Shown: positions 1,573 through 22,100, counted from the stretch's first letter. The stretch: 64,000 nucleotides of DNA from Herpetosiphonaceae bacterium (GCA_013538855.1 JABXJS010000182.1:1-64000), one strand, 5' to 3'. The notes: generated from the sequence alone by a model not told the origin. Numbers and translations are program-made.

Positions 1573-2037
1573 TTAGGGAGCAACGCTGATTTTATATGCG
1601 CGGGAGTTATTCGACACAATCGTCTCGTTGGGTAGCGGGCGAACCTGAACTGTTAGCAGATAGGTAGCCGGAACAGCAGGCAGGGTATTGCGCGGCTCAA
1701 TGCGCACAACTTTGATCTCGCCGGGCAGCAGCTCTTTGATCGTTTGGGTGCCATCAAGCATATGTTTTTTGGATGCCTGGTCGTCAAGCTGCGCAGCGAC
1801 CGTGACATTATAGGCGGTCAAGGTGCCACGATTCTCGACTGCTGCCAGCACAGCATAGCTTGAGCTAACAGGTAAGCGATTGCCCTGCAAGGCCGGATCA
1901 AAGTCGACGCTAAACACCGCCAGGTCGTAGTCCGCTTTAGCTGGCGGCGGTGGTGGCAGTGGCTCTGGCTCAACTGCGATAGAGCCGCAGCCAGCGAGCG
2001 CCGAACCAAGCAGCAGCAAAACAAATAATCGTCGCAC
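1573..2037 (-). CDS. Lipoprotein with a CARDB-like Ig fold
   Basis: The 154-residue product starts at a GTG preceded by GGGAGG. It has a short signal peptide ending in a lipobox (LAGC, Cys about residue 17), then a proline-rich linker (PEPLPPPPP). About 110 residues of beta-rich sequence follow, with the CARDB-type pattern AVENRGTLTAYNVTV and LLPGEIKVVRIEP. CARDB-like domains are extracellular adhesion or spacer modules. It lies 25 bases upstream of the DUF881 pair in the same direction and may share their transcript. Confidence 0.7.
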   Translation of the reverse strand: MRRLFVLLLLGSALAGCGSIAVEPEPLPPPPPAKADYDLAVFSVDFDPALQGNRLPVSSSYAVLAAVENRGTLTAYNVTVAAQLDDQASKKHMLDGTQTIKELLPGEIKVVRIEPRNTLPAVPATYLLTVQVRPLPNETIVSNNSRAYKISVAP

Positions 2038-2094
2038 GGGAACCTCCCTAGTCCTACAGTTCGCACGCCAGTGTACGCCGAGGAGTAAACTATG

Positions 2095-2898
2095 TCAAGG
2101 CGACACCAGCGTGCCAAGCGGCAGAGGCAGCCCTTGCAACGCTGGCAGCAGCGCCTCGGGACCACAGATCACGATCTCCAGACCTGGAACAGCGGTGGCT
2201 AAACGCCACATGGACTCGACCTTGGCGCGCATGCCGCCAGTGACATCGACGCCGTGGGAGCCGCCGAGGGTCGCCAGCACAGCCGCGTAGTTGGCGCTGG
2301 TGATCAGCGGAATCGGCTCGGCGTTGGCTGCGCTACGTGGATCGGCAGTATAGACGGCCTGCTCGCCGACAAGGATGATGCGCTGCGGGTGCAGGTTGGT
2401 CGCCAGCGCGGCGAACATGCCCTCGGTGGAGATGATCGCACAGCCCTGCTGGGCATCAAGCACGACATCGCCGTAGACAACCGGAACAACACCGGCCTGC
2501 AGCAGGTCAGCCAGCGGCCGCCAGGCGAGCGTTTGAAGGCGGCCAGCAGCGGCTTGGGCCGAGGCCGAGGGCTGCATGCTCATAGCCGGGACATGGGCAG
2601 CGAGCAGGGTTGCAACAACCGCACGGCTAAGGCGGGCCATCGCATCGGCAACCTGCACGACGCCCCACCAGCTGGCGCTGTCAACAATCCCGGCGTGGGT
2701 TTGATAGCGCTCGGCCCAATAGTGGCCAAAAGAGCCGCCGCCGTGGCCGATGAGCAGCGGCTGCTCCGGCTGGAGCTGGCGAAACTCGGCCAGCTGGCGG
2801 GCGACGTGCTCGAGCGTGGGTGTGGCCAGCGACTCGGGGGCATTTTTATCGGTGAGCACAGAGCCGCCGAGCTTCACAAAAATTGGTGCGCTACTCAT
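2095..2898 (-). CDS. Isopentenyl phosphate kinase
   Basis: This 267-residue amino-acid-kinase-fold protein would phosphorylate isopentenyl phosphate to isopentenyl diphosphate with ATP, in the alternative (archaeal-type) branch of the mevalonate pathway. The N-terminal KLGGSVLTDK supplies the nucleotide-binding Lys and Gly loop. GHGGGSFGHYWA carries the His characteristic of isopentenyl phosphate kinases and absent from most relatives. Further down are STEGMFAALA and GVDVTGGMRAKV, the usual C-terminal ATP-site segment. Length fits the family. The start overlaps the end of the upstream zinc-ribbon gene by eight bases. IPKs are known from archaea, plants and a few Chloroflexota. No mevalonate gene is adjacent. 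Confidence 0.85.
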   Translation of the reverse strand: MSSAPIFVKLGGSVLTDKNAPESLATPTLEHVARQLAEFRQLQPEQPLLIGHGGGSFGHYWAERYQTHAGIVDSASWWGVVQVADAMARLSRAVVATLLAAHVPAMSMQPSASAQAAAGRLQTLAWRPLADLLQAGVVPVVYGDVVLDAQQGCAIISTEGMFAALATNLHPQRIILVGEQAVYTADPRSAANAEPIPLITSANYAAVLATLGGSHGVDVTGGMRAKVESMWRLATAVPGLEIVICGPEALLPALQGLPLPLGTLVSP

Positions 2899-3285
2899 CG
2901 CGGATGATCAAGTTCTCAACGACACGACGGCGCAGTGAGCCATCGGCGGCGAACTCTTCCCAGACACGCTGACGCAGATAGCCGCGGCGCGGCTGCGGCG
3001 GTGCGAGCGCTGTGGAGGCTGAGGCAGGTGGTGGAGCGGACTGGTTCGAGCGTGAGCGCAGCCAGCTCGAGCCTAGATCGATCGCGAGCGCTGTGATGCC
3101 CAGCGCCACCGAGCGGGCGGCGCGCGAGCGCAAGACAGGTGCTTGGCTAATGCGCTGAGCCAGGCCGTAGGCTGTATCTGGCGCGCGAGCGGAGCCGCAC
3201 CCTCCAGGGGTGCGCCGCACGCAGCACACTGCGCCGCCTCGAGCGGATTGCCCGCCTGACAATCCCGACAGATTCGTTCGACCAT
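2891..3285 (-). pseudogene. Small zinc-ribbon protein gene with an apparent frameshift
   Basis: The frame from the ATG at 3285 (Shine-Dalgarno GAGGTGAGCT) encodes a clear zinc ribbon, with CRDC and CAAC knuckles about 12 residues apart, then runs off into unlikely sequence. The expected continuation is in another frame: a hydrophobic segment (VALGITALAIDLG), a basic linker and a C-terminal RRRVVENLIIRDE, ending at 2891. The switch must lie at about 3130-3200 and is equivalent to the loss of one base. It is either a recent mutation or a sequence error. Intact, it would be a membrane-associated zinc-ribbon protein of about 130 residues, unknown in function, coupled to the kinase gene. Confidence 0.6.
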
Positions 3286-3302
3286 AGCTCACCTCACAAA
3301 CA

Positions 3303-3338
3303 ACTTAAGGCATAGACGCTAGCCGCTATGCCTTAAGT
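3303..3338 (-). terminator. Stem-loop between small genes
   Basis: A perfect 13-bp inverted repeat (ACTTAAGGCATAG and its complement) encloses a 10-base loop. On the minus strand it is followed by TGTTTGT, so it could end transcripts of the rsfS-YtxH-like genes. It also sits just ahead of the zinc-ribbon gene and may act as a partial terminator or a leader structure. Confidence 0.55.
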
Positions 3339-3367
3339 CAACGCATCCCTACTGGAGAGATGGAGCG

Positions 3368-3562
3368 TTATTGCAGAAACAGTTCGAAGTTTGGTTCTGA
3401 GTCGCGTCCGGAGAGCCGTTTCAGACCGCGGCTAATTGCCCGGACCGTATCCTCGCCCAGCCAGTACGCCAGCACCGAGCCGAGAACCAGACCTACAGCG
3501 CTGCCGGCAGCAGCACCCAAGGCAAACAGAACATAGTTATCGCGTTTAGTGTGTGAGTTCAT
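3368..3562 (-). CDS. YtxH-like small membrane protein
   Basis: A 64-residue protein with one glycine/alanine-rich membrane helix (LFALGAAAGSAVGLVLGSVL, residues 12-31) and a short amphipathic tail. This is the layout of YtxH/gas-vesicle-like small proteins, often linked to stress. The match is to the general pattern, not to a catalytic motif. It starts at an ATG after GAGGAACTCAAA and follows rsfS by about 35 bases in the same direction. Confidence 0.55.
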   Translation of the reverse strand: MNSHTKRDNYVLFALGAAAGSAVGLVLGSVLAYWLGEDTVRAISRGLKRLSGRDSEPNFELFLQ

Positions 3563-3598
3563 TTTGAGTTCCTCGGCATCGTCGTCGGTGACGAGTTG

Positions 3599-3943
3599 CT
3601 ACTGCACTACAACCACCGGATTTGCTTTTTGCCACAGCTTATCCAGTCGATAGAAAGCCCGCTGCTCTTCGCTGAAGACATGGACAATCACATCGCCGTA
3701 ATCGAGCAACACCCAACCAGTTTCAGGTGTGCCTTCGATCCGAACATCTGGCGCACCTTCTTTCGCCAGCTCATCGTCGATCTCCTTGACCACAGCGCGC
3801 AGCAAGCGCTCGTTGTTGGCGCTACACAGGACAAAGTAATCGGCGACCGATGACAACCCACGCAGATCAAGCATCACGATATCGGTTGCTTGTTTCGAAT
3901 CCGCCAGATCAACGGCACGGCGGGCAAGTGTTTGGGCTTCGAT
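3599..3943 (-). CDS. rsfS: Ribosome silencing factor RsfS
   Basis: RsfS binds ribosomal protein uL14 on the large subunit and blocks subunit joining when nutrients are short. The frame shows the family core: DIVMLDLRGLSSVADYFVL, then EGTPETGWVLLDYGDVIVH and VFSEEQRAFYRLDKLW. The usual N-terminal helix (EAQTLARRAVDLADSKQA) is also present in frame, but no ATG, GTG or TTG precedes it. The first standard start, GTG at 3877, would delete about 22 conserved residues. An ATC at 3943 lies seven bases after a GGGGG ribosome-binding stretch and gives a product of normal length (114 residues). The ATG at 3950 is one base out of frame. Either ATC is the start, or a base was lost or misread. Confidence 0.8.
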   Translation of the reverse strand: MEAQTLARRAVDLADSKQATDIVMLDLRGLSSVADYFVLCSANNERLLRAVVKEIDDELAKEGAPDVRIEGTPETGWVLLDYGDVIVHVFSEEQRAFYRLDKLWQKANPVVVVQ

Positions 3944-4019
3944 AGTGCATCCCCCTTTTATACAGCTTGAGTTATGTATACTGAATGCCGCTACTCTATA
4001 CTCTAGAGTGTACCATGAA

Positions 4020-5210
4020 TTAGATCAGTTGCATACGGCGGCCGACCGTCTCAAAGACGTTCAGAGCCTCCTCAAGATCGGTCTGCGAGTGCGTCGCGGT
4101 GACGATGGTGCGCACGCGGCCCTTATCGCGGGCCACGGTTGGGAAGGCGATACCTTGAGCGAACACGCCGGCCTTGAATAGCTCATCGGAGAACTGCATG
4201 GCCTTAGCACCCTCGCCGACGATCACCGGCGTGATCGGTGTCTCAGAGATGCCGGTATCGAAGCCGAGGCTGGTGAGACCAGCCTTGAACATACGTGCAT
4301 TTTCCCACAGCTGATCAATCAAGCGCTGGCCCTCGGCGCTGCGCAGGAGGTTGATGGCGGCGATGCAGGTGGCGGTGACAGCCGGCGGATGCGACGTGCT
4401 AAAGAGGAATGGACGTGCGCGATGCTCCATCAGCTGGCGCAGCTTGCTCACCGAGGCGACGTAGCCGCCGAGCGCCCCGACAGCCTTCGAGAGCGTGCCG
4501 ACGTGAATATCCCAGTTTTTAAGGCCAAAGTGGCTTGCGGTGCCACTGCCATGGGCACCGAGCACACCGGAGGCGTGGGCATCATCGACCATGGTGACTG
4601 CACCATAGTGCTGGGCCAGCTCGGCGATTCGTGGCAAGGGCGCGATATCGCCGTCCATGCTGAACACGCCGTCGGTGACGATGAGAATCGTGCGATAGTT
4701 GGCGTCTTTGACCTCCTCTAGCACGCGCTCGAGATCGTCCATGTCGCAGTGGGCATAGACGCGGCGGTCGGCCTTGGTGAGGCGAATACCGTCGATGATC
4801 GAGGCGTGGTTGAGCGAGTCGCTAATGACGAGATCGCCATCTTCCAAGACCGAGCCGAGCACAGCGGCGTTGGCGGTGAAGCCGGACTGGAGGACCAGGG
4901 CGGCCTCGGTGTGCTTAAAGTCGGCGAGCAGGCGCTCCAGCTCCTCGTGGATGGTCATGGTGCCGATGATCGTGCGGACAGCGCCAGAGCCAACGCCAAG
5001 GCGCTCGATCGCATCGATCGCGGCAGCCTTGAGCGCGGGGTGTGTCGCCAGACCCAGGTAGTTGTTCGAGGACAAGTTAATGACCTCGTGGCCATCGATC
5101 TTGGAGCGTGGTCCAGGCGGGCCTTGCAGCTCGCGGAGCGAACGGAACACACCCTGCGCGCGCAGCTCATCGAGGCGCGAGTCAAGATACTGTTCAAACG
5201 GAACCGGCAT
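4020..5210 (-). CDS. kbl: Glycine C-acetyltransferase (2-amino-3-ketobutyrate CoA ligase)
   Basis: This PLP enzyme of the alpha-oxoamine synthase family (396 residues) cleaves 2-amino-3-oxobutanoate with CoA into glycine and acetyl-CoA, the second step of threonine breakdown. Visible signatures are [14 protein letters not shown] near residue 45, the cofactor-ring contact [10 protein letters not shown], the cofactor Asp in [11 protein letters not shown], and the Schiff-base Lys in [12 protein letters not shown]. AdGGAGG Shine-Dalgarno site lies five bases from the ATG at 5210 and only two from the ATG at 5213, so 5210 is preferred. Threonine 3-dehydrogenase lies two genes upstream in the same unit, which separates this call from related synthases such as BioF. 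Confidence 0.9.
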
Positions 5211-5249
5211 CATTGCCTCCTTGAAAACCGGCAGCCCGAGCCAGGGCTG

Positions 5250-5684
5250 CTACTTGCTAGCAATCACAGCGATGGTGCAGCGCGAAACACACACCAAGCG
5301 CTCCTGATCATCGGTGATACGAATATCCCACACCTGCGTATTGCGCCCGACGTGGATCGGCGTAGCGACGCCAGTGACAAAGCCAGAGCGCACAGAGCGA
5401 ATGTGATTCGCGTTGATCTCCAAGCCGACGGCCTGCTGGCTCTGCTGATCGATGTTGAGCCATGCGCCAAGCGAGGCCAGCGTCTCAGCCAGCACCACAG
5501 AGGCCCCACCGTGAAGCAGGCCAAAGGGCTGGTGGACGCGGCGCTCGACGCTCATGCGGGCGACCATGCGATCCTGGCGCACCTCGATCAACTCGATGCC
5601 CATCACATCGGGCAGGGTGCCTTGGATAAAGTCATTGTACTGCTGTAGGCTTGCGGGCGAAAACTCATTCAGATTATCAGCCAT
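5250..5684 (-). CDS. PaaI-type hotdog-fold thioesterase
   Basis: The 144-residue product has the PaaI/YdiI signature HQPFGLLHGGASVVLAET, including the HGG turn and the downstream acidic residue used to attack acyl-CoA thioesters. Start 5684 was chosen because it follows GGAGCAGGACA and lies just after the tdh stop; an upstream ATG at 5711 would overlap tdh. The gene sits between tdh and kbl in one transcription unit, so a CoA thioester linked to threonine breakdown is a reasonable substrate, though sequence alone does not show which. Confidence 0.8.
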   Translation of the reverse strand: MADNLNEFSPASLQQYNDFIQGTLPDVMGIELIEVRQDRMVARMSVERRVHQPFGLLHGGASVVLAETLASLGAWLNIDQQSQQAVGLEINANHIRSVRSGFVTGVATPIHVGRNTQVWDIRITDDQERLVCVSRCTIAVIASK

Positions 5685-5697
5685 TGTCCTGCTCCAG

Positions 5698-6762
5698 CTA
5701 CCAAGCGCCATCGAGGCCGTGCGGGTACAAGGCCACCTTGGCGGCCTCGCCCTTGAGCATTAACTCGAAGGCGGTCTCGAACTCCTCCAGCGGCAGATGG
5801 TGGGTAATAATCGGGCGCAGATCGACCTTGCCCGTGGCGACGAACGCGCGGGTTTGGTACCAGGTCTCGAACATCTTGCGGCCAGAGACGCCGTAGACCG
5901 TTGCGCCTTTAAAGACGATATGGTTGGCCAGATCGAAGTCGGGCAAGCCATTCGGCGGCAGGCCCAGCAGCGAGGCAAAGCCACCGTAGCGCAGCGCGCG
6001 GAAGCCCTGGTCGATGGCGCTTGGATGGCCGGACATCTCCAGCAGCACATCGACGCCTTCGCCATCGGTGACATCCAAAATCGAGCGCACGACATCCTCC
6101 TGGGAGTTGAGCGGGTGGGTCGCGCCCATGGTGCGCGCTAGCTCCAGGCGGTTGGGGTTGACATCGGTCGCAAAGATGTGGTGTGCGCCGGCAGCGTGGG
6201 CAATGCCAATCGCAAACAGCCCAATTGGGCCACAGCCAGTGACAAGCACATTGCGGGTGGTCAGGTTGGTGGCCATGGCGGTGTGCACAGCGTTGCCGAA
6301 TGGCTCCTGGGCAGCGGCCAGCGCTGGCGGAAGCGCAGGATCATTCTTCCAGACATTGCTGGCGGGCACAGCGATATACTCGGCAAAGCAGCCAGAGCGA
6401 TCTACGCCGATGATCTCGACATTGCGGCAGATATGCGACGCGCCGGTGCGGCACTGATAGCAGTAGCCACACACAATATGCGTCTCGGCGGATACATAAT
6501 CGCCGACCTGGACAGTGGTGACATCGGAGCCGACCTCGACGACCTCACCGGCCAGCTCGTGGCCGAAGACCATCGGCGGACGAATGCGACTCTGTGCCCA
6601 GGGGTCCCACTTATAAATATGCAGATCGGTGCCACAGATGGTTGTGGCGCGAATACGGATCAAGACCTCGTTGCGGGCGGGCTGGGGCATAGGCACCTCG
6701 GCGAGCACCGCACCAGGTGCCGCAGCGGCCTTCATCACGCCCCGCATTAACTTCCTACTCAC
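5698..6762 (-). CDS. tdh: L-threonine 3-dehydrogenase
   Basis: This zinc-dependent medium-chain dehydrogenase (354 residues) oxidises L-threonine to 2-amino-3-oxobutanoate using NAD+. It shows the catalytic zinc Cys in TTICGTDLHIYKWD, typical of Tdh, and GHELAGEVVEVG. The structural zinc cluster (CGYCYQCRTGASHIC), AAQEPFGNAVHTA and the NAD-binding GCGPIGLFAIGIA are also present. It starts at GTG, overlaps the end of cvpA by four bases, and is preceded by GAGGAGG. The product is unstable and is passed to Kbl, encoded two genes downstream. Confidence 0.92.
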   Translation of the reverse strand: MSRKLMRGVMKAAAAPGAVLAEVPMPQPARNEVLIRIRATTICGTDLHIYKWDPWAQSRIRPPMVFGHELAGEVVEVGSDVTTVQVGDYVSAETHIVCGYCYQCRTGASHICRNVEIIGVDRSGCFAEYIAVPASNVWKNDPALPPALAAAQEPFGNAVHTAMATNLTTRNVLVTGCGPIGLFAIGIAHAAGAHHIFATDVNPNRLELARTMGATHPLNSQEDVVRSILDVTDGEGVDVLLEMSGHPSAIDQGFRALRYGGFASLLGLPPNGLPDFDLANHIVFKGATVYGVSGRKMFETWYQTRAFVATGKVDLRPIITHHLPLEEFETAFELMLKGEAAKVALYPHGLDGAW

Positions 6763-8940: not shown

Positions 8941-8969
8941 TTGCCCTTTTGCGCTGGTAGGGCTATAAT
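8941..8969 (+). promoter_or_regulatory. Sigma-70 type promoter of the complex I-like operon
   Basis: TTGCCC (8941-8946) and TATAAT (8964-8969) are exactly 17 bases apart. The -10 box is followed by CGGCG. Transcription would start near 8976, giving a leader of about 25 bases before the TTG start at 9000. Confidence 0.75.
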
Positions 8970-8999
8970 CGGCGCGGTTTGACCAACAAGAGGACAGCC

Positions 9000-10076
9000 T
9001 TGAGTTACCTACTACCACTCGGACCATTTCACCCTAACTGGCATGGGCCAATGCGCTTTGTGCTGCAGGTTGAAGGCGAGCGCATCGCAGATGTTGAGTA
9101 CCGCGATGGCTATGCTGAGCGCGGCATAGCCGAGCGTCTGCTGCGCTCCTCGATCCCGCAGGCGATCACGATCGTGAGCCATATCTGCGCGACCGACTCG
9201 GTGGCGCATACGCTCGCCTTCTGCCAGGCCCTGGAGGGGCTGAGCCAGATCACGGTCCATGAGCGCGGGGCGGCCCTGCGCATGATCGCCGCCGAGGTTG
9301 AGCGTGCACAGGTCCATATTCAAGCTATTAAGGATGCGCACCATAGCCTGGGCCTGGAGCGCGACGCGCAGTATCTTGGTCGACTGCTCAATGCGCTCTA
9401 CGAAGTGCAGTATAACCTGACCGGCGTGCCCATGCAGCCAAACTTTGTGCTGCCTGGCGGCGTCAAACAAGACCTGACAGTTGAACAGCGCGAGAAAATG
9501 GCCGTGCATCTGCGGCGGGTCGAGCGGCTGATGTATCGCTTTATCGACCGCTTTATTGATCATCGCGGCGTGCTACGACGCAGCGTCGGAATCGGCGTGC
9601 TTGGGCGCGAGGCCGCCGAGCAGTTTGGCATCCGTGGGCCGCTCGCACGTGCGGCCGGCATTCCCTACGACACACGCATCGACCGCCCCTATGCGCTCTA
9701 CGATCTTTTCATCCCCAGCCGCGTGACCCAAGAGCGCGGCGATGTCTACAGCCGACTGGTCGTGATGGTGCTGGAGGCGTTTGAGAGCCTGAAGCTGATT
9801 CTGCGCATCCTGAGCGACCTACCGGAGGGCGAGTGGCTCGGCAACGCTCCAGCGAGTGTACCGGAGGGCAGTGTCACAAGCATGGTTGAGTCGGCACATG
9901 GAACGCTGCGCTACAGCGTGCAGAGCAACGGTGTGCGCCTAACGAGCCTGCGCATCGATGCACCACGCCAGTTCGATCGGCTGCTGGCGCGCACATTTCT
10001 CGGTGGCATGGCGGTGGATGACACAGCGCTGATCATCGCCTCGGTGGCACCGTGCGTGGCCTGCACCGAAGTTTGA
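9000..10076 (+). CDS. NuoD/[NiFe]-hydrogenase large-subunit-like protein
   Basis: A 358-residue relative of NuoD and group 4 hydrogenase large subunits (HyfG, HycE C-terminal half, EchE). Family signs are GPFHPNWHGPMRFVLQVEGE near the N-terminus, YRDGYAERGIAERL (the 'YxHRGIE' region), the ERAQVHIQ helix and a C-terminal CxxC. Of the four nickel-binding Cys, the first is kept (Cys63, HICATDSVAHT). The second is Asp66, and the C-terminal pair (Cys352, Cys355, in APCVACTEV) is kept, but with Ala in place of the usual Asp. It is therefore neither an ordinary hydrogenase nor an ordinary NuoD. TTG 9000 was chosen because AAGAGG lies six bases upstream. Three membrane-subunit genes follow; no small subunit is encoded nearby. 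Confidence 0.8.
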   Translation: MSYLLPLGPFHPNWHGPMRFVLQVEGERIADVEYRDGYAERGIAERLLRSSIPQAITIVSHICATDSVAHTLAFCQALEGLSQITVHERGAALRMIAAEVERAQVHIQAIKDAHHSLGLERDAQYLGRLLNALYEVQYNLTGVPMQPNFVLPGGVKQDLTVEQREKMAVHLRRVERLMYRFIDRFIDHRGVLRRSVGIGVLGREAAEQFGIRGPLARAAGIPYDTRIDRPYALYDLFIPSRVTQERGDVYSRLVVMVLEAFESLKLILRILSDLPEGEWLGNAPASVPEGSVTSMVESAHGTLRYSVQSNGVRLTSLRIDAPRQFDRLLARTFLGGMAVDDTALIIASVAPCVACTEV

Positions 10077-10088
10077 AAAGGATCTTCC

Positions 10089-11948
10089 ATGATCGAGCGG
10101 TTTATCTGGATCGCCCCACTGCCGGTGCTGGCGCTCACGGCGCTGCTGTGCTGGCTGCTGAGCGCACGCGTGCCAACCAGGCGACTGGGCTATGGCGCGG
10201 TTATCGGCGTGCTGCTGGCGCTGGCATGCCTGGTGGCTGGCCGCAGCACACAGAGCACAGTCCTAGAGATCAGCGGGCGGCCGTGGGTCACAGCCTATAG
10301 CAATCTGCCAACGCCGGTCGCGCAGGCGCGGATGGGACTGCTCATCGATGGTCTGAGCTTTGGGCTGATCAGCCTTGTGCTGCTGGGCAGCGCGTTCAGC
10401 CTGCTCACGCTGGCGCAGTCGCTGGGGGCAACGCTGCGTGGCTATGGGCGGCTGTGGTCGGCGCTGCTGGTGATGGTGCTCGGTGTGATTATTGCTGTGG
10501 CAGCGACAGACCTACTGCTGCTGGCATTTGGCTGGGGCATCACCCTGCTGGGCGTGGCGCTGGCGCGGCGCGTCGTAGGCGGCGAAGAGCAGCGCGCCCC
10601 GGTGACGCTGGGGCTAGGTATGCTTGGGCTGCTGGCGCTGCTGGCGGGCATCGAGGGGCTGGTAGTGCGCTCCGGCGATCCGACCGCAGGCAACTATGCG
10701 CTGACCGATATTGGTGCGACGATCAACCTGGGCACCTGGCTGGCGCTGATGGCGGCGGTGCTCGTAAGCCTGGGGCTGCCGCCGTTCGGGCGCGGCTTCA
10801 ACACCGATGAGCGCACGCCGCCGCTGCTGCACGGCTCGCTGCTCGCGCTCGGCACGCCGATTCTGGGCAGCTATCTGCTGCTGCGGCTGCTGGATATCAC
10901 GCTGGGGCGCTGGTCGTCTAGCTGGCTCATCGGACTGGGCGTCATTGGCGCACTGGGGCTGATCGTCGGCGCGGCGGCGGCGCTGCGGGCGACGCGCTTT
11001 GGGCCGCTGCTCGGTGCGCAGACCGTGGCGCAGTGGGGCTTGTTCACGCTCGTCATCAGCACCTACGACCCAACGCTCAGCCTCGAGGCGGCCAACAACG
11101 CCCATGTGGTTGTGGTCGCTGTGCTGCTAACGCTGACCACCTGCTGGAGCACACTGCTGAGCGCGCTGGCGCTGGGCGTGCTGGAGCGGCGCAGTGGCTC
11201 GGACCAGATCGGCAGCCAGCCGCTGCTGAGCCGTCCGCTGCGCAGCGCTGGCTTCACCTACGCCATGGCGGCGCTGGCGGGGGCAGGCTTTCCGCCGCTC
11301 TTGGGCTTCTGGGCGCGCTACTACTGGCTGGCGCACCAGCCGACGGCATTTATCATCCCGATTGTGCTTGGTGGCAGCGTGCTGCTGGCGCTGAGCTACA
11401 TGGGGCCACTGGCCCTGTTCTGGCGCATCCAGCCAGCGCGCGAGCAGCAGGAAGCGGCCAGCGGTACCGGGCTTGAGCCAGGGCTGCTGCTGGCCACAGC
11501 GCCGCTGATTCTGTGGATGCTGGTGCCGGAGCTATTCAACCGCATCCTTGTGCTGCCAGCGGTGCAGGCGATCGACCCGCTGCTAGGACAGTTCAGCCTC
11601 AGCGATCTAGCGCCAAGCTGGATTGTGCGCGTGATCGAGGCGCTGGCGCTCGCCCTCATCGGCTTCAACGCCATGCGCGCCTACCGCGGTCGGCAGCTGA
11701 GCGCCTGGACCGGCGGCGAGGCGCTGGATCAAAACGACGGCACACCGCATGTGCCACAGGCGCTGGGCTTTAGCCTGCGTGGACTGAGCCTGCTGCTCGA
11801 TCCACAGCCAGCGCTCAGCTGGCTCGGTCAGGGCCTAGAGCGCCTAAGCCGCGGGCTAGCCTGGGCGAGCCAAGCGTTTGATGGGCGCTACTACCTGACC
11901 GGCATTTTGATCGCCGCCCTCACACTTATGTTGCTTCTGGTGCAGTGA
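10089..11948 (+). CDS. NuoL/HyfB/MrpD-like membrane antiporter-type subunit
   Basis: A 619-residue protein with roughly 14-16 membrane helices and the overall layout of NuoL/HyfB. Family features include the early loop PVAQARMGLLIDGLSFGL and the later GAGFPPLLGFWARYYW. The residues that make NuoL a proton channel look changed. The helix 5 Glu is replaced by Gly (LAFGWGITLLG, about residues 145-155). The helix 7 Lys is missing from VLVSLGLPPFGRGF (about 224-236). It may be structural, or it may move another ion or none. ATG 10089 follows AAGGAT. Confidence 0.75.
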   Translation: MIERFIWIAPLPVLALTALLCWLLSARVPTRRLGYGAVIGVLLALACLVAGRSTQSTVLEISGRPWVTAYSNLPTPVAQARMGLLIDGLSFGLISLVLLGSAFSLLTLAQSLGATLRGYGRLWSALLVMVLGVIIAVAATDLLLLAFGWGITLLGVALARRVVGGEEQRAPVTLGLGMLGLLALLAGIEGLVVRSGDPTAGNYALTDIGATINLGTWLALMAAVLVSLGLPPFGRGFNTDERTPPLLHGSLLALGTPILGSYLLLRLLDITLGRWSSSWLIGLGVIGALGLIVGAAAALRATRFGPLLGAQTVAQWGLFTLVISTYDPTLSLEAANNAHVVVVAVLLTLTTCWSTLLSALALGVLERRSGSDQIGSQPLLSRPLRSAGFTYAMAALAGAGFPPLLGFWARYYWLAHQPTAFIIPIVLGGSVLLALSYMGPLALFWRIQPAREQQEAASGTGLEPGLLLATAPLILWMLVPELFNRILVLPAVQAIDPLLGQFSLSDLAPSWIVRVIEALALALIGFNAMRAYRGRQLSAWTGGEALDQNDGTPHVPQALGFSLRGLSLLLDPQPALSWLGQGLERLSRGLAWASQAFDGRYYLTGILIAALTLMLLLVQ

Positions 11949-12694
11949 TGACAGTAACGATCTGGATTTTGTTGATTCTGCTGGTGCTGACGGCGAGCGT
12001 GGTCGTGGTGCTGCGCGACTGGCGCTGGACGCTGATTGCGATTTTCTGGAACTATGTGGGGCAGGCGCTGTTTGTGGCCCAGCAGCAGTTTGTGATTCCC
12101 GACCTGCATATTTTTGGGCGCGACTTTAGCTCGCTGGTCTTCGTTAAGCTGATCACCGGCCTGGGCGTGACGCTCATCCTGGCAATCACCGCGCTCACCT
12201 TCTCGCGCGACTATGGCCTGGAAGACCTCGACGAGTTCTCGCTGGCCGAGCTGCGGCGCGCTGCACGGGCGGCGCAGCGCAGCCATGCCACCAGCGTGCG
12301 CAAGGCCAGCGACTATGTGGTGCCGGTGCTGTCGGTGGTGCTGATCGGCCTGGCCAGCTACTTCCTGCCCCTGGTGCTGCCGCTGGCGCTCCAAACCTAC
12401 GGCGATAGCCCAAGCCTCGCGCAGGCGATCGACTTTGTGTGGTACTGGCAGGCGCTGATTGGGCTGGTGACGCTGGTGCAGGCGACCGATATTCTCAAGG
12501 TGGGCCTGGGCCTGCTGCTGTGCATGAGCGGCCTGGATCTGCTGTACACCACCGTCGCCAACGGCGTGAACGTGCTGGCGCTTGGCCTGCTCAGCCTGGT
12601 GACGCTGCTGCTGGCGCTGGCGATCGCCTACCTCAGCGGCCTGCTGTACGGGCGCTTTAAAACTCTTGATCTGGTGGAATTGGAGCGGCGCTAA
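11948..12694 (+). CDS. HyfE-like membrane protein with a NuoK-like C-terminal part
   Basis: A 248-residue protein with six or seven membrane helices. The C-terminal 80 residues (TDILKVGLGLLLCMSGLDLL and the helices after it) resemble NuoK and the C-terminal half of HyfE. The N-terminal 150 residues, with a charged loop (DLDEFSLAELRRAARAA), are not recognised. The ATG overlaps the stop of the preceding gene (TGATG), and the stop overlaps the next start (TAATG), so all three membrane genes are translationally coupled. The assignment rests on layout and context more than on identity. Confidence 0.6.
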   Translation: MTVTIWILLILLVLTASVVVVLRDWRWTLIAIFWNYVGQALFVAQQQFVIPDLHIFGRDFSSLVFVKLITGLGVTLILAITALTFSRDYGLEDLDEFSLAELRRAARAAQRSHATSVRKASDYVVPVLSVVLIGLASYFLPLVLPLALQTYGDSPSLAQAIDFVWYWQALIGLVTLVQATDILKVGLGLLLCMSGLDLLYTTVANGVNVLALGLLSLVTLLLALAIAYLSGLLYGRFKTLDLVELERR

Positions 12695-14148
12695 TGACCT
12701 ACTTGCTGTTGATGGCTGTGCCGATGATTATGGCGGTGGTGTGCTTTGCACTGCGCCAGCAACAAACCTTTGTGCTGATGCTCGCCATCGCCACTAGCTT
12801 GCTGCTCGGATGGATGATCTGGCACCTGCCCACCGATCAGCCGGCGCAGCTGCTCGGCGTTAGCGTGATCCTGCGCCCAATCAACAAGCTGTTTCTGGTC
12901 ACGTTTGCGCTGGGCCTCAGCGCGACGTTTGTGGCCGCCACACGGGTGGAGCACGGCGAAAACTTCGTCACCATCGCGCTGCTGATCTGGGGGCTGCTAG
13001 CGATCACGCTGCTGATCGATGTGCAGTCGCCGTTTTTGCTCACGCTGATGCTGCTGGCCACCGGCCTAGCAATCGTGCTGGCGCTCGTTGACCTGCCGCT
13101 GAGCAGCCCGACGCTGCTGCGCGGGCGCGCCATCGGCTCGGGCCTGCGCTATCTGGTGCTCATGCTGCTGGCGGGGCTGCTGCTGGCACTCTGCTTTGTG
13201 CTCGCCGACATGGACAGCCTGCCGAGCGCAAGCGGCCAGACATCGTTTGCCCGTCCGCTGCTGGCGCTGCTGGTGGTCGGCATCGGCCTGCGGCTGGCCA
13301 CAATCCCCTTTCATAACTGGCTGCCCGACCTGCTCGAAGATGCACCGCCGCTGGTGGGCGTGCTGATCGCGCTGGTCAACATCGGCGCACTGCTGTTTCT
13401 GGTGGCGGCGTTTCAGTTCTTGCTCGCGCCAGGTCTGCTGAGCGTCGAGGGGGCCAGCCTGCGCACGCTGCGCATCTTTGCGCTGATCTCGGCTGTCGGC
13501 GGCTCGCTGCTGGCCATCCACGAGCGCGGCTCGCTGCGGCGCTTCCTGGGCATGCTGCTCATCGCCGATATGGGCACAATGCTATTTGGCGTCATCTCAT
13601 CGACCACCGGGCTGACCGGCGCGCTGTTCCAAGCCTTCAACGAGGTGGTAATCGCCGTGGTGCTGTGGACCGCCGTCGCCCTGCTGGAGCGGCCAGAGCC
13701 GACTCGTCCCGCTGCGGGCGATGGCTGGCTACGGCGGCGGCCCTGGGCCAGCGGCGTGTTCATCGGCGGCGTGCTGGCGCTGCTGGGCGCTCCGCCGTTC
13801 AACGGCTTCGCCAGCCGGGTGCTGATCTATCAGGGCGCGGCCGAGCAGGGCTTCGGCTATCTGGCGGTTATTCTGCTGGCAACCGCGCTGGGGGCCTACG
13901 CCTTCGCGCTGGTGCTGCGCGACCACTTCCTGAGCCGCGCGCCGGATGTAGCGCCAGAGGCCGACCTGACCGACTTCCACGGGCTAGGGCTGCCGCCGCC
14001 GCCGGTGCAGCGCTCCGAGCCGATTATCCCCACCGGCCTCGCGGTGACGCTGCTCACGATATGCATCATCATCGGGCTGTATCCGCCGCCCATCCTGCAG
14101 CCGATCGTCGAGGCGGTACGCGGCCTGACGTTTGTGCAGTTTTTGTGA
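12694..14148 (+). CDS. NuoN/HyfF-like membrane antiporter-type subunit
   Basis: A 484-residue, roughly 14-helix protein. The family core is clear in GLRLATIPFHNWLPDLLEDA, the equivalent of the FKLxxxPFHxWLPD motif of NuoN/NuoM, and in LGAPPFNGFASRVLIYQG. The helix 7 Lys is Arg here, and the usual Lys of the next helix appears as Asn (VNIGALL). No clear Glu is seen in the helix 5 region. It ends the membrane set of the operon and is followed after seven bases by thpR. Confidence 0.75.
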   Translation: MTYLLLMAVPMIMAVVCFALRQQQTFVLMLAIATSLLLGWMIWHLPTDQPAQLLGVSVILRPINKLFLVTFALGLSATFVAATRVEHGENFVTIALLIWGLLAITLLIDVQSPFLLTLMLLATGLAIVLALVDLPLSSPTLLRGRAIGSGLRYLVLMLLAGLLLALCFVLADMDSLPSASGQTSFARPLLALLVVGIGLRLATIPFHNWLPDLLEDAPPLVGVLIALVNIGALLFLVAAFQFLLAPGLLSVEGASLRTLRIFALISAVGGSLLAIHERGSLRRFLGMLLIADMGTMLFGVISSTTGLTGALFQAFNEVVIAVVLWTAVALLERPEPTRPAAGDGWLRRRPWASGVFIGGVLALLGAPPFNGFASRVLIYQGAAEQGFGYLAVILLATALGAYAFALVLRDHFLSRAPDVAPEADLTDFHGLGLPPPPVQRSEPIIPTGLAVTLLTICIIIGLYPPPILQPIVEAVRGLTFVQFL

Positions 14149-14155
14149 GGTAACC

Positions 14156-14743
14156 ATGAGCGACGAACCATGGCGCATCTTTATTGGTCTATTGCTCCAT
14201 CAGCGCACGCGATCAGCACTAACCAGCGCACAGCGACAGCTCCAGGCGCAGCCGCTGGCGGTGCGCTGGGTGCGCCCAAAAAATCTTCATATCACGCTGC
14301 ACTTTCTTGGCGATGTAAACCCCAGCGCGGTGCCCCAGATCGAGCAGACGCTCGATGCTGAGCTGCGCGGCCTTAGCGCGCCCACGTTCGCCTTCGATAT
14401 GCTCGGAGCCTTTCCTAAAGTCAAGACGCCTGTCATCGTTTGGGCAGGCATGACGCAGGAGCAGCCAGCGCTCCAGCAGCTCCATCGAGCCGCAGAGCTG
14501 GCCGGGTTAGCCGTGGGGGTGCAGCCAGAGCAGCGCCCATACACTCCGCACGCCACGCTGGGCTATGTCAAGCGCGATGCCACGTCACAGCAGCGCCAGC
14601 AGATCGCCACAGCGATCCAGCAGCCATGGGCGGGTGCGGCCCAGCGCACCGAGCACGCTGTCGCCATCATCCACAGCCAGCTCACGCGCCAGGGGCCGAT
14701 CTACACGCCGCTGCACACCTGGCAGCTCGACGCCGAAGAGTAG
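14156..14743 (+). CDS. thpR: RNA 2',3'-cyclic phosphodiesterase (ThpR/LigT)
   Basis: A 195-residue 2H-phosphoesterase, which opens 2',3'-cyclic phosphates at RNA ends. Both HxT/S motifs are present: HITLHFLGDV near residue 43 and PHATLGYV near 130. ATG 14156 is preceded by GAGGTAACC; an in-frame upstream start lies inside the preceding gene and is not used. It probably shares the transcript of the complex I-like genes, but a functional tie to them is not obvious. Confidence 0.9.
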   Translation: MSDEPWRIFIGLLLHQRTRSALTSAQRQLQAQPLAVRWVRPKNLHITLHFLGDVNPSAVPQIEQTLDAELRGLSAPTFAFDMLGAFPKVKTPVIVWAGMTQEQPALQQLHRAAELAGLAVGVQPEQRPYTPHATLGYVKRDATSQQRQQIATAIQQPWAGAAQRTEHAVAIIHSQLTRQGPIYTPLHTWQLDAEE

Positions 14744-16164: not shown

Positions 16165-19100
16165 CTACTGCGGATTGATGGTGATATCGCGGCTGATCAG
16201 CGTGACGCTGTCGGGCGTAGCGCTGACCGACGCGGGCACAACGGTGGTCTGGTTGTTATAGCTGACGGTGTAGCTCACAGCGCCGCTGGACTGGCCCTCC
16301 TTGACGTAGGCGACGACCTCGTAGGAGCCATCAGAGTCGCTGTACGCGTATGGCGCGCTGTCGTTGAGGTAGGCCAGCAGCGCGCCAGTCAACTCGACCC
16401 GAGCAGAGCTGACTGGGCGGCCGCTCACGTCGGTGATGCGGCCACGGAAGACGAGCGTCGTCGGATCGACGATGAGATCACGGTCCACGCTGATCTCGTC
16501 CGCACTGGCGGGAATTTCGCCGAAGAAGGTCTGGCTGCCCCAGCCACCGCTGACGACATAGACCAGCGGCAGCGCCGCCGTGGACTCGACGAAGGCGGAG
16601 CAGGAGTAGTACGAGCCGCTGCTGCTGGTTGAGTTGTCGCAGAGGATGCCGAGGCCCGGCGACGAGACCTGGATGGAGGTCCAGGTGACATCGGCGTCGT
16701 AGAGGCGCGCGTGCAGCAGCGCGCCGCTGAAGTTGATGCGGCGGGCGGCGTTGCTGCCACCAACATCAATGTTGAGGCTGGTCACGCCGCTGGCGCTGGC
16801 GCTGTACTCGCGGAAGACGGTTGTGTCGAGATTCGAGTAGTAGCCGTTGACGCTGCCGCCATAGGCGCGGAGCTTCAGCGTGCTGTTGAGCGCACTCGCG
16901 CGCAGGATCACCGCCAGATCGTAGGTGCCGTCGGCGGCGCTGTAGGTGTAAGGATTATAGTCGTAGGCCGCGATCTCCGGCTCCACATACACGGAGGCAT
17001 TGTAGACCGGCAGGCCCTGGGCATTGCGCACCGTGCCGGTGATGTGCAGCGTCGGCGGCGTCAGCGCTAGGTCACGGTCGAACGCCACATAGCCAGCGCC
17101 AGTGGCAAGACTATCGGACAAGCTCAGGGTGCGCGACTGGAGGCCCCACTCGGCGCTGATGGTGTAGGTAACAGAGATAGCCGCCGCCGTGTTGATAACC
17201 GCAGTGCACTCGTAGTAGCGTGAGCCATACAGCTCATCGGAGCACAGCGTCTGCGGACCGTCTGAGATCGTCACTCGCGATGCGCCGGTGTACAGATCGG
17301 GGAAGTCGGCGTGGTTGAGCTGGCCATAGAAATCAACGTAGCGGCCATCGAGCGTCAGCGGGCGCGTGATGGTGGTCAGCGCGTTGGCAGTGGCGCTGAA
17401 GGGCACGCTGAGCGTGGAGGTCAATGCGCCGTAGCGCCCAACATCAAGGGTGTAGGTTAAGGAGCCAGAGGTAACGCCCTGCTTCACAATGGCGGTGAGA
17501 TAGTACTCGCCGCCGTCGGCGGAGTCCGTCCACCACCAATCGGAGAAGGCGGAGCTGAAATCGGGGCTGTTCACCGTGACATAGGCATCGTTGACGGCGA
17601 TACCGGCGCTATCTTGCACCACGCCGTTGAGCTGCAGCATGGTTGGGCTGACATAGACAGTCGGGTAGACATCGAGACTTGAGCCGATCTCGCCAGCGGG
17701 CAGGGTATCGGTAAACACGGCGGTGCCCCAGTCGGCGACGACGGTGTAGGTGACGGAGAACGCGCTGGTCTGGGTGGTCACGGCGGTGCAGAAGAAGTAG
17801 CCATAGCTGATGCTATCGTCGGCACAGAGGGTTTGGCCGCCGAGCGTGCGCAGCGTCACGCTGCTAGCGCCCAAGTTATAGTCGGTGAGGACATGGCGGA
17901 CATAGCCGCTGACGTCGAGGCTGCGATCACTGATCGTCCAGTTGCGCGTGATGACCTGGGTGAAGCCAAGGGCCGTGCTATACGGGATGGTGGCGGTAAT
18001 CGTGCGACCGCCGTAGTTGAGCGCGGCCACAAGATTGCCGCTGAGCTGATCGGCGGGCATGATCACCGTCGTGGTGTAGTTGCCGCTGGCGTCGCTCCAG
18101 GCACTGTTGCTGGCGACCACGCTCGGCTGATCGACAAAGACGCGGTGCGTCGGCAGCGGCTGATTGGCGTTGGTCTTCAGGGTGCCGACGAGGCGGACAG
18201 CTGGCGGGCTAACGCTCAGCTCCTGGGCCACCGTCTGGCTGGAGCCAAGCGCACCAGCGGGCAAGCTGCCCGCTAGCGTCTGCACGCCCCACGTGCCGCT
18301 GACCACATAGCTGACGGCCAGGGCGGCGGTGGAGGTGATGACAGCGCTACAGCTGTAGCTTGAGCCATAGCTGGCCGCAGCCGTGCAGAGCGGCTGGCCA
18401 GCGGCGGTGGTGACACGCACCTGCGCGAACGGCAGCGTTGTAAAGGCCGGATCGCTGCTGCGCACCTGGCCACTGAACGTAACCTGGCGCACATCATAGA
18501 GCAGATCGTGGCTGACGGACTGGAAGCTCACAGGCGGCGCGCTGACCGGCAGCAGCAGCTCCTTGGCGACGCTGCCGAGCGTGACGCGGTAGGTCAGGCT
18601 CGTGCTGCTCTGGTCAGCCTTGAGCATGCCGATCAGGCTGTAGGAGCCAGCGCTATCGACCTGCTGCGACAGCGTGTTCAGCAGCGCAGAGCCAGAGATA
18701 TTGACGTTGGCACCGGCGACCGGCTGGCCGCCAGCGCTGACGACGTGACCAATCAGCTGCACGGTTGTCGGATGGACCAGCAGATCGCGGCTGACCGACG
18801 TGTAGGAGCCGACCGAGCCGGCGGCGACGCTGCCGACCAGCGTCTCGCTGCCCCACGTGCCGCTGACGACATACTCGACGTCGAACGCGGCGGTGGTGGC
18901 AACATTGGCGCTACAGCTGAACGAGGTTGACGTGCCGCTGGTGTTGTACTCGCACAGCGTGCCCAGGCCCGGCGACTGCACCACCACGCGGTAGCTGGGC
19001 ACCGTGATCTGGGTCGCAAAGGCGTTGCGGAGCGAGCCAGAGAAGTAGACCCGGCGCTCGCTGGCGGTGAAGTCGCGGCTGAGCGCGGTGAGCGCGTTCA

Positions 19101-22100
19101 GCTCAGCGGTGAAGGGCACGCTCTCGTTCAGCTCGACGTTGTTGACATCGATCTCGTACTCCAGCGCGCCGGCGCTGACATCGCGCTTGAGAGCGACATA
19201 CGCATCATAGGTGCCAAGCGCGTCAACGCTGATGTAGGAGCTGCTGTCGAGCAGCGCCGCGCCGCGCACGTAGAGCGAGGCCGACGATGGCGGAGCGCCC
19301 TGATCGTCGAGGACCGAGCCAGTCAGATGCAGGGTGGTCGGGCGGGCCGACAGGTCTTGGCCAACATCGACATTCTGGCCGGAGCCAGGCAGGCTTGCCA
19401 GCTGCTTGCTGACCACCACCGGTGCCCAGGGGCCAGTCAGCGTGTAGACCAGATCGAGGCTGCTGGTGCTGGAGATGGTCGCCGAGCACCAGTAGGAGCC
19501 GGACACCGACGTATCGCAGAGCGTGCCATAGCCCGGCGCGGTGATCGTGAGGTGCATGCCAGCGCCATTGATGGTGCGATCGGCCACGCTGGCGGGGATC
19601 AACTCGTTGAGGATATCGCCGTGGAAGGCGAGATACATGCGCTCAAGCGTCAGATCGTGCAGCAGCGTGTTGGGCTGATGCGGCGTCACGCTGAACGGCA
19701 CATCGACCTCCTGCGCGGTTGAGTCATACGAGAAGTAGAAGCGGATGCTGCCGCTGGCGACGTTGCGGCGCACGATAGCGCGAATCAGATAGTTGCCATT
19801 GCTATCGGTGTAGTCGGAGAACGAGTTGACAAACTGACTGCTGGAGAGCGACACATAGGCACCGGAGAGCGGATCGCCCTGATCGTTGCGCAGCGTGCCG
19901 GAGATGACCAGCGACGTGTAGGCAATATCGTAGCTGAGGGTGTTGAGCACGCCGGGCGTGACGCTGAAGGCGGTGACATCCTCGAAGCTGCCGCTGAAGT
20001 TGTTGTTGTAGAGATAGCCGCTGAAGTCAATCGAGCCGGTCAGGACATCGGCGTCCAGCATCTGCGTGATGGTGTACACGCCGCTGGCATCGGTGTTGAC
20101 CGAGCTATCGACGTTGGCATCAGAGAAGCGGTTGCTGTACAGGCTGACCGAGCGGTTGGTGGCTGGTGTGCCATCGAAGTTATACAGGTGGCCGCTGATG
20201 CGCAGCGCCGTGACCGTTGGCGACATATTCTGGGTGACATCAAGGTTGGCACCAGCGGCAGCGACGCTGGGCAGCGTGCTGGTGAACACATACGTGCCCC
20301 AGTCGCCGCTGGCGGTGTAGGTGAGCGGGAAGGTCGTCGTGCTGCTCGTGTCGTAGGTGCACTGATAGTTGCCGTTCGAGTTGTAGTAGGTGTTGGCCGT
20401 ACAGAGTGTGCCGAGGCCCGGCGACTCGACCTTGACCGCGACATAGCGCATCGGCAGGTTGGCGATGGTGTTGCGCACCTGGCCCTTGAAGGTGTAGCGG
20501 CGCTGGGCAAAGCCCACCGGCACTGTCACGCTGTTGAGCTGGCCTGGCAGGGCCGTGTAGGCCACATTGTTGACCGACGTGGACAGGTTCGAGTTGTACA
20601 GCGAGAGATTGAAGGTGCCGCTGGTGCGATTGGCACGCAGCACCACATCGAGCGAGTAGAAGCCGCTGGCAGCGCTCGGCTGCTGCGCCGAGGTCGGCCC
20701 GTTGTAGGAGATATCGGCGCTCGAGGCCGAGACATTCATGCCCTGGATGGGATTCACGCCATCGCTGATCACACCGGTGATGCGCAGCATCGTCGGCGCG
20801 AAGGGCAGGTCTTTGGCCACCGTGCCGCTGCCACCGGGGGCGGGCAGCGTTGCGACGGTGTCGGTGATCACCGTTGCGCCCCAATCGCCGCTGACGGTGT
20901 AGACGACATCGAAGGCGCTGCTGACATCGATGGTCGCGCTGCACGAGTACGAGCTGCTGGCGTAGTTGACGCTACACAGCTCGCCAAGGCCCGGCGAGCT
21001 GACGCGCACCTGCTGGCCGGAGACGGTGGCGGTAGGCACGACGGTATTCTGCAGCGCGCCGCTGAAGGTGAACTTACGGCCGAGGGTGAAGTTGCGCGTG
21101 ATCACATTCGCGGTGTGCAGCGTCACCGGCGTAAAGAAGTCCTGGTTGATCGTGTTGGAGCCAAGGGTGATGCGATAGCTCAGGCGCGGCACGCTGACGC
21201 CACCCTCGACATAGGCATAGAAGTCGTAGGTGCCGGAGATATCGGTCGTTGTCTGCGGCGAGTTGATCAGCTGCGACAGATCGCCGCTGTTGTCGATCAG
21301 GCGCACCGTGGCATTGCTGATCGGCTGGCCATCGCCGCCGGTGACCTGGCCTTTAAGATGCAGCACCGTCGGATCGATGCCCAGGTCGACGGGCACGGCG
21401 GTGGTGCTGCCCAGCGGCGGCAGGCTGGTGATGACATCGGTGCGGGTGATGACCGTCTGGCCCCAGTCGCCGCTGATCGTATAGACCAGGCTGAAGGGAT
21501 CGGTGGTGTTCACATTCGCGCCACAGGAGTAGTTGCGCGTGTAGTACAGCGACTGCTGACACAACGGCCCCAGCTCCGGCGAGGCGATCTCGACGCGGTA
21601 GTAGTAGTAGCCGGTCGGCAGCGTGAGCGACGGCGCGGACGTGTTGGTGAGCGTGCCGCTGAAGTTGAAGCGGCGCAGCGCGATGGTGAAGTCCTTGCTG
21701 ACCGCGTTCAGGCTGTTGGGCGTCACGGCCAGCGGCAGCCGATCGTTGACCGAGAAGCTGTTGTAAGACGCCGTGTAGTTGAGGGCCAGCGTGGTGACGC
21801 CCTTGCGTGCGATCACAAACATATCGTAGCCGCCGCTGCTGTCGGTGGCGTCGCTAGTACCGGAGGCGAGGCTCGAGCTAGACACGCTGACGTAGGCGTT
21901 GTTGATCGGCGCGGCGCTGTCATCGACGACGCCAGTGAGGTGTAGCGTCGTCGGCGTCACGTTGATGTCCTGCGCCACGTTGGTGCTGGAGCCGTTCGTG
22001 CCAGCGGCGACGGTGCCAGTGACCACGGTGCTGAACCAGTTGGAGGTGAAGGTGTAGGTGACCGAGAACGCCTCGGTGTTGAGCACCTGCACGCTGCACG

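Follow-up and report, generated by a model that had tools for sequence, protein, structure and literature searches.

Is a complex I- or hydrogenase-like operon that encodes a large subunit and three membrane subunits, with no evident partner for electron input, a system on its own, or do its partners lie elsewhere? The question is raised by a 64,000-nucleotide stretch of DNA from a Herpetosiphonaceae bacterium (GCA_013538855.1 JABXJS010000182.1:1-64000), referred to as the window, in which four co-directional open reading frames (ORFs), here named D, L, E and N, span positions 9000-14148 of the plus strand. A previous interpretation of the window, made from the sequence alone and hereafter called the sequence-only reading, had described these genes as an operon without electron-input partners. 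The comparative analysis presented here leads us to assign a probability of about 0.6 to a different reading, in which D-L-E-N would be part of a six-subunit, Chloroflexales-specific complex of the Ehr type, now non-redox and conformationally driven with a linked ATP-binding cassette (ABC) transporter. Family labels f1-f8 are used below, with f1 denoting the window's family, together with handles for loci (L) and genomes (G, with G000 for this genome). The labels Herpetosiphon, Roseiflexus-like and Chloroflexus were assigned to relatives by kinship and, for two families, from named database records; a single-protein scan of contigs gave six named loci, including two from Herpetosiphonaceae and two from Chloroflexus. 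Calls of absence rest on draft genomes, single-contig genomes excepted.

The ORF calls in the window place the four genes in tight succession, with a 12-bp gap between D and L, a 4-bp overlap of L and E (11945-11948) and a 1-bp overlap of E and N (12694), and a promoter-like site lies upstream, in agreement with the earlier description of coupled genes driven by one promoter. The features are as follows.

8941..8969, plus strand: sigma-70-like promoter of the four-gene operon, TTGCCC-17-TATAAT, upstream of AGAGGA and the TTG at 9000.
9000..10076, plus strand: D, 358 residues, a hydrogenase/NuoD-family large subunit (Pfam, best PDB match HycE, tree).
10089..11948, plus strand: L, NuoL/HyfB-like antiporter-like subunit, 619 residues, very divergent (hhalign match to HyfB), with the glutamate of transmembrane helix 5 (TM5) and the lysines of TM7 and TM8 lost.
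11945..12694, plus strand: E, HyfE/NuoK-like membrane subunit, 249 residues, of weak homology but a conserved partner (hhalign, local structure match).
12694..14148, plus strand: N, NuoN/HyfF-like antiporter-like subunit, 484 residues (Pfam, hhalign), with the TM5 glutamate lost and the TM7 lysine replaced by arginine.

Since shuffled sequence yields 1.4 TTGCCC-17-TATAAT-like sites in the same region, it is the position of the site at 8941-8969, and not its mere presence, that lends support to it. Translation of D most likely starts at the TTG at 9000, though its ORF is open from a TTG at 8979, because AGAGGA lies upstream of the former and relatives begin at the same V/L-S-Y.

Inside the window the absence of partners stands: none of the ORFs adjoining the operon encodes NuoB, NuoC, NuoI or NuoH. 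For the genome as a whole it does not. The genome (6.3 Mb, 100% complete) harbors two ordinary complex I loci, on contigs C30 and C7, which contain its only typical NuoB and NuoH genes, and further antiporter-like complex I subunits on contig C20; contig C4, in addition, encodes dedicated NuoB-type and NuoH-type proteins. The first of these came from a sub-threshold NuoB match (22 bits) and is a 124-residue NuoB/HycG-type protein with zero cysteines. The row on this contig reads as follows.

Contig C4, 5158-5532, minus strand: B, NuoB/HycG type, 124 residues (profile match).
Contig C4, 4311-5141, minus strand: H, NuoH/HycD type (AlphaFold/Foldseek and hhalign).
Contig C4, about 3256-4263, minus strand: ABC ATPase, beside B-H.
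Contig C4, 2492-3256, minus strand: ABC permease, beside B-H.

In Roseiflexus-like and other genomes, homologues of B are found directly 3' of N and are followed by a NuoH-type gene, an ABC ATPase and a permease. The conserved Chloroflexales operon is D-L-E-N-B-H-ABC-ABC, a gene order kept in dozens of genomes, beyond chance, and unbroken in L086 (the basal member of the window's family), L045 (Roseiflexus-like), L053, L098 and others. The B-H-ABC-ABC row on contig C4 matches the genes located 3' of N in these relatives, so that the complex has six subunits, encoded in this genome at two loci, and we infer that they assemble. The same split, D-L-E-N // B-H-ABC-ABC, occurs in Herpetosiphon-like genomes, and in G043 a single contig carries both halves, separated by about 2.4 Mb. 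A partnerless operon is hence ruled out by the presence of B and H on contig C4 and by their position adjoining D-L-E-N in relatives, and the set can no longer be confined, as the sequence-only reading had it, to a large subunit and three membrane subunits. That reading had named the presence of the missing subunits just outside the four genes in close relatives as grounds for its own refutation, and this is the arrangement seen in L086, L045 and L053; it had also suggested a module borrowing subunits encoded elsewhere, which is literally the case in this genome.

A different source of B and H would be one of the ordinary complexes I, with D-L-E-N sharing the NuoB and NuoH of the C30 or the C7 locus. 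Two such loci do exist, and Chloroflexus-like genomes have no dedicated B; the dedicated B and H genes in the operon of relatives are nevertheless strongly selected, and H remains in genomes from which B is gone, making such sharing very improbable.

The subunit assignments were obtained from family, profile and structure comparisons, and the family matches of D, L, E and N (Pfam, hhalign) agree with the hydrogenase-4/complex I type initially proposed for the set. D was identified as Complex1_49kDa (Pfam, 5e-36); its best solved relative is HycE of the E. coli formate hydrogenlyase (PDB 7z0s, 8e-39), and it also matches MbhL (7e-33) and MbsL (1e-18). N was identified as Proton_antipo_M (Pfam, 4e-19), its family matching HyfF at 1.5e-19 (hhalign), while L is weakly NuoL/M/N-like and too divergent to be called by the Pfam scan, with its family matching HyfB at 2e-11 (hhalign). 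The E family matches HyfE weakly (hhalign, E-value 0.005, with every other target at 0.04 or worse), and the AlphaFold model of E, which has a predicted local distance difference test score (pLDDT) of 90, presents a weak local match to NuoK/NdhE and no significant full-length match in the fold search; with reserve, E is regarded as HyfE/NuoK-like. Neither E nor H matches a Pfam or NCBIfam family. Profile comparison links the B family to HycG (hhalign, 2.8e-16). For the AlphaFold model of H (pLDDT 90.5), the best Foldseek matches are NuoH and HycD from solved complexes (probability 1.0, TM-score about 0.6-0.7); the model matches subunit M of MBS as well, and across 248 columns the H family can be aligned with a group 4 H subunit (hhalign, 4e-8). 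No small Mrp genes of the MrpA-G set were identified in the operon (Pfam/NCBIfam). In the D tree, the sequences of f1-f6 form a monophyletic clade that mirrors the host families and is placed outside NuoD, itself a separate clade with full support. The suggestion that D might be a recently degraded NuoD is ruled out by this topology, and D is neither a NuoD nor a working hydrogenase.

The loss of redox parts in D and B can be traced in their metal ligands, which in D are carried by two motifs.

9186..9197, plus strand: C-A-T-D in D, the first of the two former [NiFe] motifs, with the second cysteine replaced by aspartate (sequence and alignment).
10053..10064, plus strand: C-V-A-C in D, the second of these motifs, located three residues before the C-terminus (sequence and alignment).

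Three of the four [NiFe] cysteines are thus present (C-D-C-C) in the window and in all f1 loci examined; the aligned positions read C-H-C-C in f3 and contain four cysteines in the f4 copies examined and in the principal f5 loci, where B has lost its cysteines in two cases. In part of f2 only some of the D ligands or none are kept. For B, the four cluster cysteines are present (4/4) in all f2, f4 and f6 copies examined and in 3/4 f3 copies, and number 0/4 in all seven f1 copies and 0-1/4 in f5. Since the B of the unsplit L086 is already without cluster cysteines, their loss predates the split of the locus. The reverse case is found in L096 and L097 (G022 and G023), where all four [NiFe] cysteines of D are gone (S-A-D-D) and B keeps 4/4. 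In 28 f2 genomes, Chloroflexus included and three of them single-contig, E and the rest of the set are retained but the B gene itself is missing, as judged by a B profile sensitive enough to recover ordinary NuoB at about 1e-10 in the same genomes; H lies directly 3' of N in the B-less f2 loci examined, and G056 (f4) represents a separate loss of B. The term "stripped" used in the sequence-only reading thus applies more strongly than had been proposed.

The machinery for maturation follows the same trend. D stops at its last motif, without the C-terminal maturation extension present in HycE. Every [NiFe] centre requires HypD, and hypD is absent from eight of the nine family genomes (the complete G000 and G043-G049), with only G042 having it and control genomes positive as expected; nor was it found in G070 and G078, despite their complete cysteine sets, or in G057 and G055. 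No gene for NuoC, NuoI, HycF, HycB or a ferredoxin-like protein was detected in the f1-f6 loci searched, as had been anticipated for NuoC/NuoI-type electron input; one f8 locus carries a NuoC-like gene. Extra weak matches among neighbouring genes turned out to be DNA methyltransferase and TsaE-like proteins, which are unrelated. An active [NiFe] hydrogenase in this genome is ruled out by the first motif, which is CxxD where group 4 [NiFe] enzymes have the first of two CxxC motifs, the lack of HypD and the cysteine-free B, and the system also has no NuoB with N2 ligands, NuoC or NuoI that would qualify it as a complex I. With the ligands lost and no electron-input subunit, a redox reaction in this complex would need cofactors without visible binding sites, and we infer that redox activity is lacking.

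Two alternatives bear on this point. An Ehr-type redox complex might move electrons in another way, through a quinone at the D/B/H interface or an unseen flavin or ferredoxin partner, with B acting as a spacer. An HPxxHG motif like that of quinone-reducing NuoD is present in the D encoded here, and Roseiflexus-like relatives keep all ligands; however, this motif is not conserved across the family, D departs from NuoD in the residues that follow its first [NiFe] motif, B is without cluster ligands and no electron-input subunit is encoded in the f1-f6 loci, and we consider this alternative unlikely. The remaining ligands of D could instead bind Zn, and the complex could catalyze a metal-dependent hydration coupled to the passage of ions or bicarbonate through the arm, comparable to the DabA/DabB CO2 accumulator. 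The C3D (f1), C3H (f3) and C4 (f4) sets of D are ordinary Zn sets, and several genomes with such sets are among those where hypD was not found (e.g. G070, G078, G057, G055), but the sequences revealed no link to DabA, the ligands are only partly kept or wholly lost in some f2 members, and the canonical ion-path residues are lost, so that this possibility is rated as distinctly unlikely.

The ion-path residues were compared by alignment across families. The TM5 glutamate is absent from every N and L sequence of f1-f4; the TM7 lysine is an arginine in nearly all N sequences of f1-f4 and uncharged in L, and the TM8 lysine is gone. The TM5 Glu/TM7 Lys pair of antiporter-like pumps is therefore not found in L and N, while f5 L subunits mostly keep it. 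This Lys/Glu pair is central to current pumping models (PMC5938582), and E. coli complex I loses its activity when E144 of NuoM is mutated (PMC8357420). Because the pair is lost and E144 is essential in NuoM, canonical pumping is unlikely even in relatives with metal ligands, and the alignments point to canonical proton pumping by L and N as improbable.

None of this amounts to decay. Within Herpetosiphon, D, L, E and N have median omega values of 0.02-0.04, and H and the cysteine-free B have values of the same order (about 0.02-0.04); the four-gene set is present in all nine sampled family members; D, L, E, N, B and H are under strong purifying selection. Ligands and B have been lost piecemeal in different lineages, which could suggest a relic of a lost hydrogenase heading for disappearance, yet intact ORFs, the selection on all six Herpetosiphon genes and the presence of the system in all nine sampled family members make a relic barely credible.

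Taken together, the preferred reading of a non-redox, conformationally driven Ehr-type complex can be outlined as follows. In the usual assembly, D, B and H would form a foot and E, N and L a membrane arm. Without cysteines, B would be unable to carry a proximal iron-sulfur cluster, D could not receive a [NiFe] centre, and there is no ferredoxin-like subunit; the remaining Cys3Asp set of D may bind an ordinary metal, for instance Zn, or stay empty. The Glu/Lys proton pathway of L and N would be gone, and the complex, presumably no longer redox, would most likely act by conformational change with the linked ABC transporter. The ABC pair stays with B-H through the split of the locus and through the loss of B; coupling to this pair, like a metal in D, is speculative. 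Several observations weigh against this outline. The ABC genes are not beside the f3 and f5 operons, and the link is hence not universal; all eight metal ligands are kept in f4 and part of f2, where an ancestral and possibly surviving function may be redox; the homology of E to HyfE is weak; the residue tables for the antiporter-like subunits depend on the alignment of distant proteins, L being very divergent; and a quinone-only or flavin-mediated redox role would still be compatible with the sequences. A more specific version, in which a complex I relative has been freed from electron transfer, with iron-sulfur and [NiFe] centres gone, B structural or discarded, and the arm driven by or regulating the ABC transporter, is put forward only tentatively.

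The Chloroflexales offer a series of states of one complex, from all ligands kept (Roseiflexus-like), through cluster ligands lost with the protein kept (Herpetosiphonaceae), to B deleted (Chloroflexus and relatives), and the series also holds [NiFe] ligands lost with cluster ligands kept (G022, G023). The extent to which the membrane arm and the redox foot of complex I can be separated is a long-standing question, and with cultured relatives for three stages of the series, a complex I relative without electrons becomes directly testable.

Other features of these genomes deserve mention. The 3' end of N is overlapped by a gene for a LigT-type RNA 2',3'-cyclic phosphodiesterase, which is not thought to be a subunit of the complex; a LigT-type gene lies 3' of N in Herpetosiphon as well, and co-transcription with N is possible. 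Further downstream in the window, a 6068-codon ORF encodes a repetitive surface protein of secreted appearance, built from numerous similar domains.

14132..14743, plus strand: LigT-type phosphodiesterase (Pfam/NCBIfam), start probably ATG at 14156.
16165-34371, minus strand: 6068-codon ORF, surface protein.

The complex I locus on contig C7 (L041) contains an apparent extra antiporter-like gene, comparable to the "2-M" cluster of Chloroflexus aggregans (PMC8004040). Other Chloroflexota families encode L-E-N trios that stand alone, without neighbouring D, B or H genes (L152, 5718-9930; L153; L154, 5657-9560; L155, 5427-9707), three of which adjoin an lgt-like gene, an even smaller antiporter-like module. 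L122 (G086, f5; 1733-5742) is a second L-D-B trio with lost ligands, whose D clusters in the tree with HyfG-like large subunits.

Among known systems, respiratory complex I (NuoA-N) shares the D, B, H, L and N subunit types, but here D falls outside the NuoD clade, there is no NADH module, NuoC or NuoI, N2 ligands are absent, and two ordinary complexes I exist besides. Two complexes I are counted in the literature on Chloroflexus and Herpetosiphon (PMC3150298, PMC8004040, PMC4653791), no earlier description of this third set was found in literature searches, and the "extra nuo genes" of both genera may, our results suggest, include a third, different complex. One paper lists a "nuoF (Caur_1185)" apart from the nuo clusters, possibly a misnamed gene of this operon. 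The Mbh and MBS complexes of Pyrococcus are related through the D matches to MbhL and MbsL and the H match to subunit M, but the present system has no Mrp-type set or ferredoxin-accepting subunit, and its metal ligands are lost. The subunits also correspond to those of the E. coli formate hydrogenlyase and hydrogenase-4 (HycCDEG, HyfBCEFGI), where L resembles HyfB, H HycD, E HyfE (weakly), N HyfF, D HycE/HyfG and B HycG; unlike these, the present system has no HycB, HycF, HyfA or HyfH, no HyfD, no NuoC-like domain or extension on D and no hypD, and the [NiFe] and proximal cluster ligands are lost.

The system is probably best filed as an Ehr-type complex, in a new, ABC-linked variant without redox centres. 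Ehr, the closest kind described, is a group 4-like complex without [NiFe] ligands (PMC6349859, PMC10284858, PMC10432482), and this identity, drawn from published descriptions, the D tree containing no published Ehr sequences, is well supported: the large subunit is of the group 4 hydrogenase/complex I type, lies outside NuoD and has an incomplete set of [NiFe] ligands, although several relatives outside f1 keep four D cysteines, and small, NuoH-type and antiporter-like subunits are all present (B and H on contig C4, L, E and N in the window). What is new here, relative to the Ehr complexes of Nitrospira, ammonia-oxidising archaea and Margulisbacteria, is a small subunit that is cysteine-free or deleted, the loss of ion-path residues in L and N, the split locus and the ABC link.
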